From NCBI GenBank assembly GCA_020852475.1, contig JADZAR010000119.1, forward strand, positions 1 to 64,000: a stretch of DNA of 64,000 bases. Reading direction: 5' to 3'. The notes under the pieces are model-generated. The model made no database searches. It was not told the DNA's origin and saw nothing but the letters and a program-made list of their open reading frames with translations. This DNA comes from Nitrosomonas sp. GTDB taxonomy: Bacteria > Pseudomonadota > Gammaproteobacteria > Burkholderiales > Nitrosomonadaceae. Both the position numbers and the translations under genes were made by a program. Shown here piece by piece: positions 26,075 through 33,638 of the stretch; positions within the stretch are counted from its first letter, which is position 1, and each line of letters starts with the position of its first letter.

Positions 26075-27010
26075 ATGCGCACACTGATCTGCGGCTCGAT
26101 CGCTTACGACAACATCATGGTCTTTCCGGATCATTTCAAAAATCATATTCTTCCTGAAAAAATTCATGTTCTGAACGTTGCGTTCCTGGTGCCGGAAATG
26201 CGCCGTGAATTCGGCGGCTGCGCGGGTAATATCGCCTATAATCTGAAAATGCTCGGTGGCGAACCGGTGATGATGGCGACCGTCGGCGACGATATCCAGC
26301 CCTACCGCGAACGTTTCGAACAGCTCGGACTCGATCAGTCGAATGTGCTGCACGTCAAGGATACGTTTACCGCGCAGGCATTTATCACCACCGATCTGGA
26401 TGATAACCAAATCACCGCGTTTCATCCCGGCGCAATGAATTTCTCGCACCTCAATTCGGTCTCCGATGCGCACCCTATCCAACTCGGTATCATCGCGCCG
26501 GACGGACGCGACGGCATGCTGCAACATGCGCGTGAATTTCACCAGAGCGGCATCCCGTTTGTCTTCGATCCGGGTCAGGGCCTGCCCATGTACAATGGCG
26601 ACGAACTCAAGGACTTCATCGACAAAGCCGACTATGTCGCGGTCAATGACTATGAAGGCCAGTTGCTGCAGGAACGTACCGGCCTCACGCTGGAAGCCAT
26701 CGCCAAAAAAACCAGAGCGCTGATCGTGACGCTGGGCGCACAGGGTTCAACCATTTATACCGATGGCCGGCAAATCGACATTCCCAGCGTGAAACCGCAG
26801 GACATCGTTGATCCAACCGGCTGCGGCGACGCCTACCGCGCCGGCCTGCTGTACGGCATCACGCATGGTATGGACTGGCAAACAACCGGACGGCTCGGCT
26901 CGCTCATGGGCGCGTTGAAAATCGCGCATCGCGGCGGTCAGAATCACCAGTTCACCCGCGACATGATCGATCAGCTTTATTTCGATCACTTTGGCAGCCG
27001 GATTTTCTGA
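26075..27010 (+). CDS. PfkB-family carbohydrate (adenosine-like) kinase
   Basis: ICGSIAYDNIMVF, FGGCAGNIAYNLKMLGG, DIVDPTGCGDAYRAGLLYGI. Confidence 0.9.
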   Translation: MRTLICGSIAYDNIMVFPDHFKNHILPEKIHVLNVAFLVPEMRREFGGCAGNIAYNLKMLGGEPVMMATVGDDIQPYRERFEQLGLDQSNVLHVKDTFTAQAFITTDLDDNQITAFHPGAMNFSHLNSVSDAHPIQLGIIAPDGRDGMLQHAREFHQSGIPFVFDPGQGLPMYNGDELKDFIDKADYVAVNDYEGQLLQERTGLTLEAIAKKTRALIVTLGAQGSTIYTDGRQIDIPSVKPQDIVDPTGCGDAYRAGLLYGITHGMDWQTTGRLGSLMGALKIAHRGGQNHQFTRDMIDQLYFDHFGSRIF

Positions 27011-27299
27011 CATTCCGCTTCCCTTCCGTCTGCTCGATGCGGACGGAAACACGCAATCTCTCCACTCCGGGACGAAGAAGCCAAACATGTGTAACTTTGA
27101 CTTGCGTACGGCATGTCAGAGGGTATATTTTCGGGCGGTTTTATCTATTGCACGTCAGAATTATTCAGCACCGATGCCCTCGCCTGCTGTGGAAAACGGG
27201 ATTTTCACGCGCGATCAGTACAATAAACACCTCTGATGCATCCACAGCAAGCGAGGCATAAAGGGCGCTGCTGATAACATTGAAGAACGGAGGGTAACC

Positions 27300-27548
27300 A
27301 TGAATCCGGGAAACATCAAGATCATCGACCGACTGTCCGCCGTCGAAACAATTAAACGGCTAAACGAGGAAGGCTTGCGCTTTCTCAACAACCTCATCGT
27401 CGAACGATTCAACCTCATTTCCCAGGCTCGCGCGACCTCGCTGATAACTCGCTTCACCAAAAGCGACCGTATCACTTTTACAGCTTCCGACAGCCATCAC
27501 TGGAACGTCTCTCCCAGCCTGATCCGCGAAGCGGAGGATATACAATAG
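27300..27548 (+). CDS. Small hypothetical protein, possibly a restriction-modification locus leader ORF, possibly internally deleted
   Basis: 82 aa, good RBS (GGAGGG), MNPGNIKIIDRLSAVETIKRLNEEGLRFLNNLIVERFNLISQARAT; followed by hsdM-like N-terminus. Confidence 0.5.
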   Translation: MNPGNIKIIDRLSAVETIKRLNEEGLRFLNNLIVERFNLISQARATSLITRFTKSDRITFTASDSHHWNVSPSLIREAEDIQ

Positions 27549-27610
27549 CCATAATCTGTCAATCAGCATGAACCTCAACGCGATGCTTATTTCAACAAGA
27601 AAGCGCTGAC

Positions 27611-27838
27611 ATGGCCCAGCCTGAACATATCGAAGCCATTGAAAAACGGCTCTGGAGCGCAGCCGACACCCTGCGCGCCAAGGCGACAACTACGCCAGCA
27701 AAAAATATTTCCTGCTGCTCATGGGTGACCGAATACATAGAGATCTTTTATAACCGGCAGAGAAAACAAGAAAGACTGAGTTACCTATCGCCGGCAGAAT
27801 TTAAGCAACGATACTATACAGACCTAATCGCTGCTTAG
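27611..27838 (+). pseudogene. Chimeric remnant: hsdM (type I R-M methyltransferase) N-terminus, frameshifted, joined to IS3-family transposase C-terminus
   Basis: N-part MAQPEHIEAIEKRLWSAADTLRA then, in another frame, DNYASKKYFLLLMG (HsdM-like); C-part EYIEIFYNRQRKQERLSYLSPAEFKQRYY is an IS3 OrfB-type tail. Confidence 0.75.
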
Positions 27839-27883
27839 TCAGATGGACTCCATATTTGACAACATACCACAAAGGATTTTACA

Positions 27884-30800
27884 GTGAAAAATGATACTGT
27901 AACGATATTACCAAGCAGCATCAGTCCCTATTTAAATGAAATAGCTGAGCGCTTATGGTCAGGTCATGCTGCTATCATGGTTGGAGCCGGGTTTAGCAAA
28001 AACGCTTCACCTAATGGCACATCGACTCGCGGTTTTCCAGATTGGCAGCAGCTAGGGGATTTGTTTTATGAAAAAATCAATGGAACAAAGCCTGATAATA
28101 AGGGTAAATATCTGAATGTTCTCAAGCTAGCCGATGAAGTTCAAGCTGCATTCGGAAGACCCGCACTTGATCAATCTTTACGCGATGTCATACCCGATTA
28201 CGAATACGAACCTTCTCCTCTTCATGTAAAACTACTGGATTTACCATGGACAGATGTATTTACAACAAATTACGATACCTTGCTTGAGCGAGCTTGCATC
28301 TCAGTCAGTTCACAGAAATACGATGTTGTAATCAATAAAGAAGATTTAGTCTACTCGGAAAAACCCAGAATCATTAAGCTGCATGGCAGCTTTCCTTCCG
28401 AACGCCCGTTTATTATTACCGAAGAAGACTATCGGCGCTATCCAAAAGATTTTGCGCCATTTGTTAATACTGTTCAGCAATCACTACTTGAAAATACACT
28501 TTGCTTAATTGGTTTTTCTGGTGATGATCCCAATTTTCTTCAATGGATTGGGTGGATTCGCGACAACCTTGGAAGCGAGAATTCCCCGAAAATATACCTG
28601 ATCGGCGTTTTAAATTTATCATCTGCCCAGAAAAAACTTCTTGAACAGCGCAATATTGTGCTGATAGATATGGCCGACTGCAGCGACATAGATGGAAGCC
28701 ATTACAAGGGGTTAGAAAGATTTCTCGATTATTTACTATCCAGAAAAAATGAAGATAACAGGCTTGGATGGCCAGAAAATCCTGGCCTAAATGAGCTTGA
28801 TTCCAAAAAAGAAAAGTTGATACAAGTTGATGAGATTGTTCAAGCATGGAGAAATCAAAGGCTTGCTTATCCCGGTTGGATTTCGGTTCCGGAGGATCGT
28901 CGAGGTTTCCTTTGGCACTATACTCGAAATTGGATTGGGTTTATTACATCAGAAGATAAACTTCCTGGCTGCCTTGATCTTGAATTTGTATATGAACTTA
29001 ATTGGCGTTTAGAAAAATGCTTGTTACCACTTCTATCGATAGAGCAAGCCGAGTTCTTTGAAATTATCTTGGAAAAATACTGGACTCATAGCGAGAATAT
29101 TAATTTTAATGAACTGCGTGACCCTGTGCCGCCATTAAGTAGCATCAATTCAACAGAAGCTGTCAGAAATGAGATAGGAAAAATGCGCATCCCCCTCATG
29201 CTGTCATTGATGCGCTTTTACCGTACGGCAGGTTTACAAGAAAAATGGAGGAAAATCGACAGTCAAATTGAAAATGGTGATTTAAGCAGATATCTGACCG
29301 CCGAACACATAGCGAATCTTCACTATGAGCGTTCACTCTTTGCGTTATTTAGACTAGATATTCTTGAACTCAAACAAAAAATTGAAGAATGGCCGATTAA
29401 TGAGTCTTTGCCACTTTTTGAAGCCAAAAGGGCTGCGTTACTTGCCGAAATCGGCGAAATAAATACAGCGGAATCTATCCTTGAGAAATCGCTAAAAAAT
29501 GTGCGCGCATTACTTAATCTGAAGCCGATCACGACAGATTATTCTCTGGTCTCTCAGGAAGCTATTATCATGCTATTGCTTCGATATGTGCAATTACCAA
29601 AATCTTTTGGAAATGCAGATCAGAATAAATTCTCTGAACGATGGAATGTTCTCAAGCAATACAAATGCGATCCTTGGAATGAATTAAAACTTTTCGCAAG
29701 TGCTCTCGAGAGACCTCCAATAATCAAGCCATCGGTTACTATAAAACAAGAATTTGATATTGGACGAACAACTTCGACAATTCATTCTGTTAACGAAGAT
29801 TCGGAAGCGTTAACTGCATATCGTTTTTTAATATTCTGTGAGGACATAGGCTTACCATTCAGAATACCGAATGTTGATATTGGGAAGAAAAGCGCTGAAG
29901 GAACATTGCTACGAATTTCCCAATATTCTCCATTTTGGTCAATGATCACCTTGGTTCGTATTGGTGATCAGAAAATCGTTGATTATATTTTTAACCGAGA
30001 ATATCTTTCTAAAATCAATGAATTAACAATAGATGAACTTATTACTGGTTATGTTGAAATCCTGAATAAAGTTCAGGATGAAAAACAAATTAGCAATTTC
30101 TCAGCCGTGTTAGCGAAAGTTATACCAGAAATTTTATCGAGACTATGCTGCAAATGTTCCACGAAATCAAAAGAAAAGCTTATTAAGCTTCTTCTAAGAA
30201 TATACGAATCGGATCACAAAAGAATTTATAGTGGAATTCAGAACCTGACGGCAAGACTTATCAATTCCTTTTCCGTTCAGCAACGCTTATATTTGATCCC
30301 GACATTACTGAGTCTTCCTATTCCAGAAAAAACTAGCCCCCAAGAAGAAAGAGAGTTTATCAATCCATTTCACTTATTAAACATAAACATAACAGATATA
30401 GAAACCTGGGATAAGCCAGTAATCCCTGAGGAAAGAATCAGCGTCCTTTTTGAAAAAGGAATGTCAGTTAATGCAAACGAAAGAAAGTGGGCTATTTCTT
30501 GTCTCAATCAATTGCATAACCTTGGTTTTCTCGATTCAGAATCGTCTAAAAAATTCGCCGAAATTCTATGGCATGTACGAGATAGTCATGGCTTACCTGA
30601 TCAGACAAATTTTGATAGAGCCTATTATAGACTCCCTTATAGATTCGCATTTCTGAATCTACCTCACCCTACTGACGTTGATCCAATCGCCTTATTCAAG
30701 AATTATGTCTTGAGTTCAATATTCCCAGTTCAGAAAAATTCTACCGATAATGGCATCTCATTCACACAAAGTGAAGTAACACTATGCGATGAGATTGCTT

Positions 30801-31615
30801 GTGCCAGCAAATTCCTTAGCTGGTCTGATGAAGAAATTAATTTATTGTTTAATCGCATGATTGAATGGTGGGACTCCGATAAGAATTACTTGAAGAAGGA
30901 TGCCTCATCATCACCTTTTGGTTCCGTAGCAGACGAAGCTAGATTTATTAAACTGATAGATGCTCTGGTAGCTCTAGCATTAGCATCAGATTTGAATACA
31001 AGTAATATTAATAAAAGTGAACTTCTCCGCTTAATTAATGAGTTAAAAAATTATGGAATTCAGGCTCTTCGACTGGAAAGCGCATGTTTAAATATTTTGC
31101 CAGAATTTAAAAATGTTATTCTCGGCAAGATTGAAAGTGGTTTATCCTCAAATAATGACAACATAATCAATGATAGTTTGAATGCGATTTGGACAGTTGC
31201 AAAACTAGCTGAATCCCATCATGAATTTGATGAGCTATTGTCTCATTTGCTTACAATGATCGGTCAGATCATTTTTTGGAGAAAACAACCGGGATTATTA
31301 AACACACTCAAGGTATTGAATGTATTAGAAGAGAAAATTATTTCACAGCTTAACGATGAATTAAGAAACGTCATCTTGGCTGGGTTACAGAATATTGCTA
31401 AAGATACAGATATAGCCACAGAAAATCAGAATCTGTCTGAAAAACTTGCTATCCGTCAGGAAGCGGCAGGATTAGCATATAAATTATTTTCACTTTACAC
31501 AAAGCAGGAAAAGAAAATTCCGGACTCAATTCTAATCTGGCAAGAAATCTGCCATTCAGATACGGAATTTGCTGAAATCAGGAACCAATGGCTAGAAAAG
31601 GAAACCGTGCAATGA
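27884..31615 (+). CDS. Large SIR2-domain protein, candidate anti-phage defence-associated sirtuin (DSR1-like / SIR2 plus long C-terminal region)
   Basis: 1243 aa; N-terminal MVGAGFSKNA, DVFTTNYDTLLERA, KLHGSFPSERPFIITEEDYRRY, LCLIGFSGDDPNFLQWIGWI = intact SIR2_2-type NAD-binding motifs; long alpha-helical-looking C-terminal region. Confidence 0.85.
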   Translation: MKNDTVTILPSSISPYLNEIAERLWSGHAAIMVGAGFSKNASPNGTSTRGFPDWQQLGDLFYEKINGTKPDNKGKYLNVLKLADEVQAAFGRPALDQSLRDVIPDYEYEPSPLHVKLLDLPWTDVFTTNYDTLLERACISVSSQKYDVVINKEDLVYSEKPRIIKLHGSFPSERPFIITEEDYRRYPKDFAPFVNTVQQSLLENTLCLIGFSGDDPNFLQWIGWIRDNLGSENSPKIYLIGVLNLSSAQKKLLEQRNIVLIDMADCSDIDGSHYKGLERFLDYLLSRKNEDNRLGWPENPGLNELDSKKEKLIQVDEIVQAWRNQRLAYPGWISVPEDRRGFLWHYTRNWIGFITSEDKLPGCLDLEFVYELNWRLEKCLLPLLSIEQAEFFEIILEKYWTHSENINFNELRDPVPPLSSINSTEAVRNEIGKMRIPLMLSLMRFYRTAGLQEKWRKIDSQIENGDLSRYLTAEHIANLHYERSLFALFRLDILELKQKIEEWPINESLPLFEAKRAALLAEIGEINTAESILEKSLKNVRALLNLKPITTDYSLVSQEAIIMLLLRYVQLPKSFGNADQNKFSERWNVLKQYKCDPWNELKLFASALERPPIIKPSVTIKQEFDIGRTTSTIHSVNEDSEALTAYRFLIFCEDIGLPFRIPNVDIGKKSAEGTLLRISQYSPFWSMITLVRIGDQKIVDYIFNREYLSKINELTIDELITGYVEILNKVQDEKQISNFSAVLAKVIPEILSRLCCKCSTKSKEKLIKLLLRIYESDHKRIYSGIQNLTARLINSFSVQQRLYLIPTLLSLPIPEKTSPQEEREFINPFHLLNINITDIETWDKPVIPEERISVLFEKGMSVNANERKWAISCLNQLHNLGFLDSESSKKFAEILWHVRDSHGLPDQTNFDRAYYRLPYRFAFLNLPHPTDVDPIALFKNYVLSSIFPVQKNSTDNGISFTQSEVTLCDEIACASKFLSWSDEEINLLFNRMIEWWDSDKNYLKKDASSSPFGSVADEARFIKLIDALVALALASDLNTSNINKSELLRLINELKNYGIQALRLESACLNILPEFKNVILGKIESGLSSNNDNIINDSLNAIWTVAKLAESHHEFDELLSHLLTMIGQIIFWRKQPGLLNTLKVLNVLEEKIISQLNDELRNVILAGLQNIAKDTDIATENQNLSEKLAIRQEAAGLAYKLFSLYTKQEKKIPDSILIWQEICHSDTEFAEIRNQWLEKETVQ

Positions 31616-31799
31616 AAATAACTCTAAAAACAAAGCCCTCAGAGAATGGTCAGATAATCCTTGACTCACTGCAAAAGGCCGTAACGCAAGAACTTGAAAA
31701 GAAACGCCGCTTGGGTCAGTACACCACCGTATTTGGCAAGACGGCAAGCCGATGATGGCCCGAGATGACGCACCGCAAACATATGAAAAACCCGCTTAA
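31612..31799 (+). pseudogene. Small ORF overlapping the SIR2 gene stop (ATGA), apparently frameshifted by loss of one T
   Basis: Frame 1: MKITLKTKPSENGQIILDSLQKAVTQELEKKRRLGQYTTVFGKTASR* (31612-31755); shifted frame from 31734 continues WQDGKPMMARDDAPQTYEKPA* to 31799, which reads as the natural continuation of RRLGQYTTVF. Confidence 0.6.
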
Positions 31800-31883
31800 A
31801 CACTTTCATTGAAGCGATCTTTGTTCATGTATCCGGGCCTATCCCACGATACCGTCACCCTGATCCTACTATTTGAGTTATAA

Positions 31884-33638
31884 CTATTCCGGCATTCTTT
31901 TATCGCCGCACAATGCTCTGTGCCGCGCCAGATACAACGGCGTCCAGGCGTGGGGCAGTTTGTGCACGAAATGATAGCGCGCGACATGATAGCTGGGATC
32001 GAAGCCGTAGAAGTTAAGCTGCATCCGGTGCAGTTCTTCATCGCGGTAATGTTGCAACGGTTTCTCCCGCTCGTCGTCGCTGCGTTGCTGTATTTTCCGT
32101 TGCAGGCGCGCGGCGTAGTCGGGTGCCTGCGCCAGCTGTTCGGCCAGATTGTCGATCATTTTGATAAACGCGGCGCGATCCAGCGCAAAGCTGGCGTCGA
32201 TCAATCCGGCTGCCTGCGCCGCACTGGCGCTGATCGGCAAGCGGTTCTGCGTGAGTGCTATGGCCTGATCCCGGCCGACGCGTTTAGGCAGCAGATATGT
32301 CCAGTATTCCGAGCCGTATAGGTTGCCCATACTTTTGTAATGCGGATTCAGGATGACGCTTTCGCGGGCGTACACCTTATCCGCCGCCAGCGCCAGAAAA
32401 ACCCCGCCCGCGCCCGCGTTGGCCTGTAATGCGGCTATGGTGAACTGCCGTTCGTTGGTCATGATGGCCTGCGCCAGGTCGTTCATCGCGTTGATATTGC
32501 GCCAGGATTCATCGGCGGGGCTTTCAGCGGCTTCGATATGATTGAGATGGATGCCGTTCGACCAGAAATCCGCGCCGCCCATGAGCACAATCACCTTGAT
32601 ATCCTGTTGCGCCGCCTGCAGGTAGGCCTGCCGCAGCCGTTCGCATTGCCCGGTGTCCATCGCACCGTTATAAAATGCGAAGTGCAGGTAACCGACTGCG
32701 TTTTTCCGTTCAAACCAGATGTCGCGATAAGTGGCAGCATGCGCAGCCGCAAAGACGTCACAGACCATTTCGGGTACATCGTTGAGGATGGTTTCGGCGT
32801 AGTGCTGCGATGCGTATGTCGCGCTCAGTTTAAATGGCTGCGCATCATCCGATTGCCGGGCTTTGCGTTTCAAATGACCGATCCATACCGCGCCGTCCGT
32901 TGTTGCACGACAAATGGCGTTATTCCGTCGCGCGATGAGCGTTCCGGGTGTTCCGGTCAGCTGCGCTTCGGGGTGCGCGTCAAACAGATACCACTGTACA
33001 CCGCATATTTCATCGAGCACGCCGGGGAAACCATCGGCTGCGTTGATTTTTTTCAGCACTGTGCGGGTATCATCGTTTTTCCAATCGATGGCGCGGTCTG
33101 CCTGGCGCATCGGCGCATGCAGCCTGCCGCGAACGTCGCTGCGCGAATAATCCAGCGGCTGCGGCCTGAAATACCCTACGGAAAACCGTTCGATCGCGCG
33201 CAATACCGCGCTGATCGCCGCTTCGGTCACTTCATGGCGGTACAGGCTGCTTTTCCGCGTCAAATACGCGGGCGGCATGGCGAATGTCTCCGTAGCCCAG
33301 ATATCACCGGCATCCATTTCCGCATTCGCCTGCAGAACGGTCACGCCCCATTCCGTTTTTTCCTGCATGATCGCCCAGTCGAGCGCGGCAGGGCCGCGGT
33401 CGCCGACGATACCGGGGTGAACGATAAAACACGGAATCCTGCGCCAGATCGTGTCGGGAATCGCGCGTTTCAAAAACGGCGCGATGATCAGTTCCGGTTG
33501 AAACAGCTCCGCAGCCTGGAGGGCAACGGCATCGTTGATGTCAAATTCGATGGAAACCGTATGCCCGCGCGCTGACAATTCGATGAACAGGCGTTGCGTG
33601 AGACTGTTGAAGCTGTGTGTCAGAAACAGGATTTTCAC
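31884..33638 (-). CDS. hypX: Hydrogenase maturation protein HypX (formyltransferase + enoyl-CoA hydratase-like)
   Basis: MKILFLTHSFNSLTQRLFIELSARGHTVSIEFD; FIVHPGIVGDRGPAALDWAI; C-terminal crotonase-like region (VIVLMGGADFWSNGIHLNHIEAAESPADESWRNINAMND). Confidence 0.92.
   Translation of the reverse strand: MKILFLTHSFNSLTQRLFIELSARGHTVSIEFDINDAVALQAAELFQPELIIAPFLKRAIPDTIWRRIPCFIVHPGIVGDRGPAALDWAIMQEKTEWGVTVLQANAEMDAGDIWATETFAMPPAYLTRKSSLYRHEVTEAAISAVLRAIERFSVGYFRPQPLDYSRSDVRGRLHAPMRQADRAIDWKNDDTRTVLKKINAADGFPGVLDEICGVQWYLFDAHPEAQLTGTPGTLIARRNNAICRATTDGAVWIGHLKRKARQSDDAQPFKLSATYASQHYAETILNDVPEMVCDVFAAAHAATYRDIWFERKNAVGYLHFAFYNGAMDTGQCERLRQAYLQAAQQDIKVIVLMGGADFWSNGIHLNHIEAAESPADESWRNINAMNDLAQAIMTNERQFTIAALQANAGAGGVFLALAADKVYARESVILNPHYKSMGNLYGSEYWTYLLPKRVGRDQAIALTQNRLPISASAAQAAGLIDASFALDRAAFIKMIDNLAEQLAQAPDYAARLQRKIQQRSDDEREKPLQHYRDEELHRMQLNFYGFDPSYHVARYHFVHKLPHAWTPLYLARHRALCGDKRMPE

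Follow-up and report, generated by a model that had tools for sequence, protein, structure and literature searches.

A Dsr2-type SIR2 protein of foreign origin in Nitrosomonas with a predicted sensor half not detectably related to that of Bacillus subtilis DSR2

The DSR2 protein of Bacillus subtilis provides a solved reference for the locus described here. In this single-gene system, the C-terminal domain binds a phage protein, whereupon the SIR2 domain depletes NAD (PMC10981675, PMC11087589), and the phage tail tube protein has been recognised as the trigger (PMC10981675). Cryo-EM structures of this protein, which is activated by the SPR tail tube, are available (PDB 8wkx, 8wy8 and others), and the residues N133 and H171 have been shown to be catalytic (PMC11087589, PMC10973363). 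Two further described proteins have to be considered, the large SIR2 defence protein Dsr1 and ThsA of the Thoeris system, which also has a SIR2 domain. We analysed a stretch of 64,000 nucleotides from Nitrosomonas sp. (GenBank assembly GCA_020852475.1, contig JADZAR010000119.1, positions 1 to 64,000), hereafter called the window, which harbors a gene of this kind. As in B. subtilis, a single gene encodes the whole protein, in which a SIR2 domain bearing the N/H pair precedes a long C-terminal part, predicted to be helical in the window protein; however, the window protein comprises 1243 aa compared to 1005 aa in B. subtilis DSR2, and similarity between the two is detectable only in the SIR2 domain.

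An earlier sequence-only reading had placed the gene exactly at the position given in Table 1, and this position and the product length were borne out by the ORF listing. The frame consists of 1243 codons with zero internal stops, and the opposite strand is interrupted by many stops. The GTG start codon is supported, because the stretch AAAGGA is situated 7 bases upstream and the similarity to two Nitrosomonas relatives, L032 and L048, begins 16 bases 5' of the same GTG; both relatives carry AAAGGG/AAAGAG at the matching position.

Table 1. Positions of dsr2, its protein parts and its adjoining elements in the window.
Feature	Position	Strand	Basis
Type I methylase debris (presumed HsdM N-terminus)	27611..27720	+	87% to stretch in sister genome locus L077
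IS3-type insertion sequence 3' end	27722..27862	+	Pfam rve_2; transposase C-terminal end reaches 27838, followed by the terminal part
Probable ribosome-binding site AAAGGA	27871..27876	+	7 bases upstream of dsr2 GTG, sequence
dsr2, SIR2-domain defence protein, 1243 aa	27884..31615	+	Intact ORF, GTG start, NF041819 and PDLC02184 matches
SIR2 NADase domain (predicted activity), residues 9-285	27908..28738	+	Pfam SIR2_2, phmmer, Foldseek
Asn129	28268..28270	+	Counterpart of catalytic N133 of B. subtilis DSR2; invariant in 30 homologues
His167	28382..28384	+	Counterpart of catalytic H171 of B. subtilis DSR2; kept in 29/30 homologues
Alpha-solenoid, residues 290-1243, putative sensor and oligomer arms	28751..31612	+	AlphaFold2, Foldseek, profile search
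Frameshifted small ORF overlapping dsr2 stop	31612..31755	+	Intact relative L077 6582-6767

Whether the protein is of the Dsr1 type had been left undecided, and the searches with PADLOC and NCBIfam models settled this point in favor of full-length Dsr2. The NCBIfam equivalog model NF041819 matches the window protein end to end with 1519.4 bits (profile 1-1215; curated cut-off 1400 bits), and the PADLOC model PDLC02184 matches with 1487 bits (profile 5-1221), whereas none of the Dsr1 models NF041818, PDLC02183, PDLC04166 and PDLC04167 gave a match at E up to 1. PADLOC models for ThsA matched as well, but only the SIR2 part (residues 14-240) of a protein much larger than the about 480 aa of ThsA, and a ThsB-like neighbour was absent among the genes adjoining dsr2. 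Judged by these models, the protein is Dsr2 and not Dsr1. An alignment of 30 full-length sequences from many phyla, every one of which matches both Dsr2 models, showed 39-61% identity between the window protein and the other 29 members and nothing notable that would set it apart. It is hence a new Dsr2 member, ordinary within a catalogued defence family.

The four motifs quoted in the sequence-only reading (GAGFSKNA, TTNYDTLLERA, KLHGS and GFSGDDPNF) were all found in the dsr2 product, and the SIR2_2-like N-terminus proposed there was recognised by Pfam PF13289 at residues 125-261 (E 2.5e-23, 83.2 bits, cut-off 24.5). A hmmsearch with the window-family profile A1 omitted B. subtilis DSR2, and SIR2 similarity was therefore judged by BLASTP, Foldseek and single-protein phmmer; the latter listed DSR2 over residues 8-283 of the window protein (E 6e-18). 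The SIR2 fold also emerged from the structure search, since this part superposes on the solved DSR2 chains with a TM of about 0.8 (3.4-4.1 A, 285-293 columns). Read from the phmmer alignment, the catalytic N133 and H171 of B. subtilis DSR2 are equivalent to N129 and H167. The residues G34, G36, S38, N129, D131 and G168 are invariant among the 30 full-length members, in which the GAGFSKN and GFSGDDPNF motifs are near-invariant. With N129 and H167 present, the predicted active site of the window protein is complete. Beside this, one full-length Dsr2 from a Desulfobacteraceae MAG (L040 5977-9912) has Asn in place of the His167 equivalent with the rest intact, which may be a natural inactive form or an error. 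In comparison with the Nitrosomonas copy L032, dN/dS is 0.075 in the SIR2 domain and 0.40 in residues 286-400. These substitution ratios place the SIR2 domain under strong purifying selection, and a low value there with a higher one next door is the pattern expected for an effector and a sensor.

The structure prediction that had been proposed for residues 300-1243 was run on residues 290-1243 and returned one long alpha-solenoid, nearly all helix, with a mean pLDDT of 84.7 and a pTM of 0.83 (AlphaFold2, alignment of 30 sequences). Foldseek against the PDB ranked HEAT-type solenoids best for this part alone (CAND1, karyopherins, CRM1 and the PP2A scaffold; lowest E 4e-5), and in a profile search with the window family the solenoid matched ARM-repeat designs. 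Matches to the Pfam families YpjP and OS-D in the solenoid were discarded; they lie under their cut-offs and fit generic helix similarity. Residues 290-1243 are likely to act as the sensor of the window protein, and the arms may additionally serve oligomerisation. Five homologues of about 1310 aa (L036, L039, L040, L044 and L045) have an apparent extra stretch of ~70-90 aa near residue 570-590 of the window protein, which is possibly an inserted solenoid module.

Given the same order of parts, a SIR2 domain followed by an all-helical C-terminal part, the window protein might work exactly like B. subtilis DSR2, as a tetramer that binds the monomeric tail tube protein through its C-terminal domain and can be blocked by phage inhibitors of the DSAD1 type. 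In favor of such a close correspondence, Foldseek with the model of residues 1-1200 placed chains of the solved DSR2 at the top of its list (E as low as 6e-16 over about 1200 columns). However, the global superposition is poor (TM 0.2-0.3, rmsd 17-23 A) and the fit is good over the SIR2 part only; moreover, solved DSR2 was absent among the best 50 PDB matches of the solenoid alone. The modelled layout, SIR2 plus a long helical arm, is thus that of DSR2, but it does not prove kinship of the arms. The solved DSR2 has an orthologue over its full length in a plasmid-encoded protein of Priestia (L051 3504-6452; 1254 bits), and BLASTP aligned the window protein with this orthologue over the SIR2 domain only (25% of 293 aa), with nothing meaningful outside this domain. 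When the C-terminal parts of the window family and the solved-DSR2 family were compared by hhalign, the probability was 0.1% (E 0.63), whereas a same-sized two-sequence profile of distant members of the window family (L050 and L002) reached 100% (E 3e-77, 893 columns); because of this control, the profile comparison can be regarded as sensitive enough. Furthermore, the Priestia orthologue was matched by neither Dsr2 model at E up to 0.01. Hence, from the sequences compared, no relation between the sensor halves is detectable, a result that is still compatible with a very distant common origin, and for this reason a tail-tube trigger should not be assumed for the window protein. We regard an identical mechanism as doubtful, while the analogy with B. 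subtilis DSR2 is supported where the enzyme half and the overall arrangement of parts are concerned and does not extend to the sensor sequence. The more distant plasmid-borne DSR2 relative L052 (3501-6461) is matched by the Dsr2 models in the SIR2 part only, so that the PADLOC and NCBIfam Dsr2 models have a coverage gap for the plasmid-borne relatives of the solved protein. The chances appear about even that the name Dsr2 covers two lineages with only the SIR2 enzyme in common, a ~1000-aa B. subtilis type and the ~1210-1310-aa window family, each with its own sensor and a different phage trigger.

The horizontal acquisition suggested by the sequence-only reading was corroborated. The AT-richer composition already noticed there is pronounced, with a GC content of 37.7% (32.6% at third positions) in dsr2 compared to 53.6-57.7% (56.5-68.7%) in the eight neighbouring genes, and the closest full-length relatives and tree neighbours, L007 and L010, are labelled Myxococcota and Thermodesulfobacteriota, respectively, outside the host phylum, although records of this kind may contain binning errors. 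Because of this difference in GC (38% versus 54-58%) and the closest relatives in other phyla, dsr2 is, as judged from sequence, foreign to its Nitrosomonas host. Some 14 phyla are represented among the relatives and intermixed in the tree, which requires 7 changes for Pseudomonadota, a number not below that typical of shuffled labels; one partial relative was found in a collection of annotated phages. Among 61 related genomes, only that of the window has a copy over the cut-off. The two other Nitrosomonas copies found are broken: L032 is 91% identical but disrupted by internal deletions or frameshifts and situated at a contig end, and the copy in Nitrosomonas sp. LK110 (L048) breaks off at about residue 170 and contains an internal stop. 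The truncated copy L003 in another genome of the genus (G024) agrees with L048 in its identities and query ranges. The flanks of L032 and L048 differ from those of dsr2 in the window, which indicates that the surroundings do not accompany the gene when it moves or is acquired.

The IS and restriction-modification debris that had been described as flanking the gene was recovered to the left of dsr2. There, a short segment (27611-27720), which we take to be the N-terminus of the type I methylase HsdM, is joined to the C-terminal end of a transposase of the IS3 type (Pfam rve_2, E 1.9e-6), and the IS3-type end occurs in many copies across the genus. In the 92-93% identical sister genome G036, the HsdM remnant, the small ORF and the hydrogenase-maturation-like gene lying downstream flank other cargo, namely an AAA/ASCH-like protein and two further ORFs in the place of dsr2. 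The flanks corresponding to window positions 26075-31900 are split there across two contigs (L077 3540-6767 and L078 1191-2335), and the pfkB-like gene that lies to the left of dsr2 in the window is on another contig there. Since the same flanks carry other cargo and this gene lies elsewhere, the aligned contigs mark the dsr2 site as a variable spot, beside a rearrangement or an assembly/contig difference. A two-gene system including the small downstream ORF was considered and rejected, because this ORF is frameshifted and its relatives occur in the genus without dsr2; clustering of neighbours at 29 loci, in which no family was found near dsr2 in more than 5/29, also counts against it. Direct comparison revealed type I restriction-modification genes within 3 kb of dsr2 in L007, L010, L040, L044 and L045; raw PADLOC counts add further relatives with such genes nearby.

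The left flank also raises the question whether the window copy is expressed. The region 5' of the start that is common to L032 and L048 is replaced in the window by the IS remnant from 16 bases before the GTG, hence expression is the main doubt about this copy, and the promoter may have been lost to the IS remnant. Promoter-like sites near dsr2 were no commoner than in shuffles, and the same holds for a site at 27856-27885, which additionally overlaps the start codon and was discarded. With both other Nitrosomonas copies being broken, the window copy could be recently acquired and unexpressed. Taken further, dsr2 might be a decaying island gene, a recent arrival cut off from its promoter and heading for the fate of L032 and L048, and the debris on both flanks would also fit such a course. 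However, its 1243 codons are still open, the active site is complete, dN/dS is low and the ribosome-binding stretch has been retained, which makes decay improbable. A sirtuin with a housekeeping or metabolic role as a protein deacylase and no tie to defence would share only the SIR2 fold and is highly implausible given the SIR2_2 type, which ThsA and DSR2 also have, the match to the equivalog model of a defence family over the full length, the patchy presence among related genomes and the lack of a CobB-type match in the NCBIfam model search.

Collectively, the evidence best supports reading the protein as a SIR2 NADase effector that carries its sensor at the C-terminus and belongs to a defence context gained by horizontal transfer. 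By analogy with the described system, the acquired dsr2 very probably encodes a self-contained abortive-infection protein in which the solenoid senses the phage and the SIR2 domain destroys NAD. This view is favored by the full-length matches to curated Dsr2 models, the conserved active site, the superposition of the SIR2 part on solved DSR2, and the proximity of type I restriction-modification genes to dsr2 in several relatives, L007 and L010 among them. In the healthy cell, the long C-terminal alpha-solenoid would hold the SIR2 domain off. Upon infection, the solenoid would bind a phage-made protein, the SIR2 domain with N129/H167 would be freed to hydrolyse NAD, and the loss of NAD would stop the infected cell before phage release.

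The window thus contains an intact Dsr2 in a genus of ammonia oxidisers in which the two other copies found are broken. If Dsr2 indeed comprises two lineages, the present models give the window family the name of the B. subtilis protein and, by inference, also its trigger. As no relation between the two sensor halves could be detected, the solved mechanism of B. subtilis DSR2 should not be transferred to the proteins named Dsr2 in databases, and the trigger of the larger Dsr2 family becomes a directly testable question.
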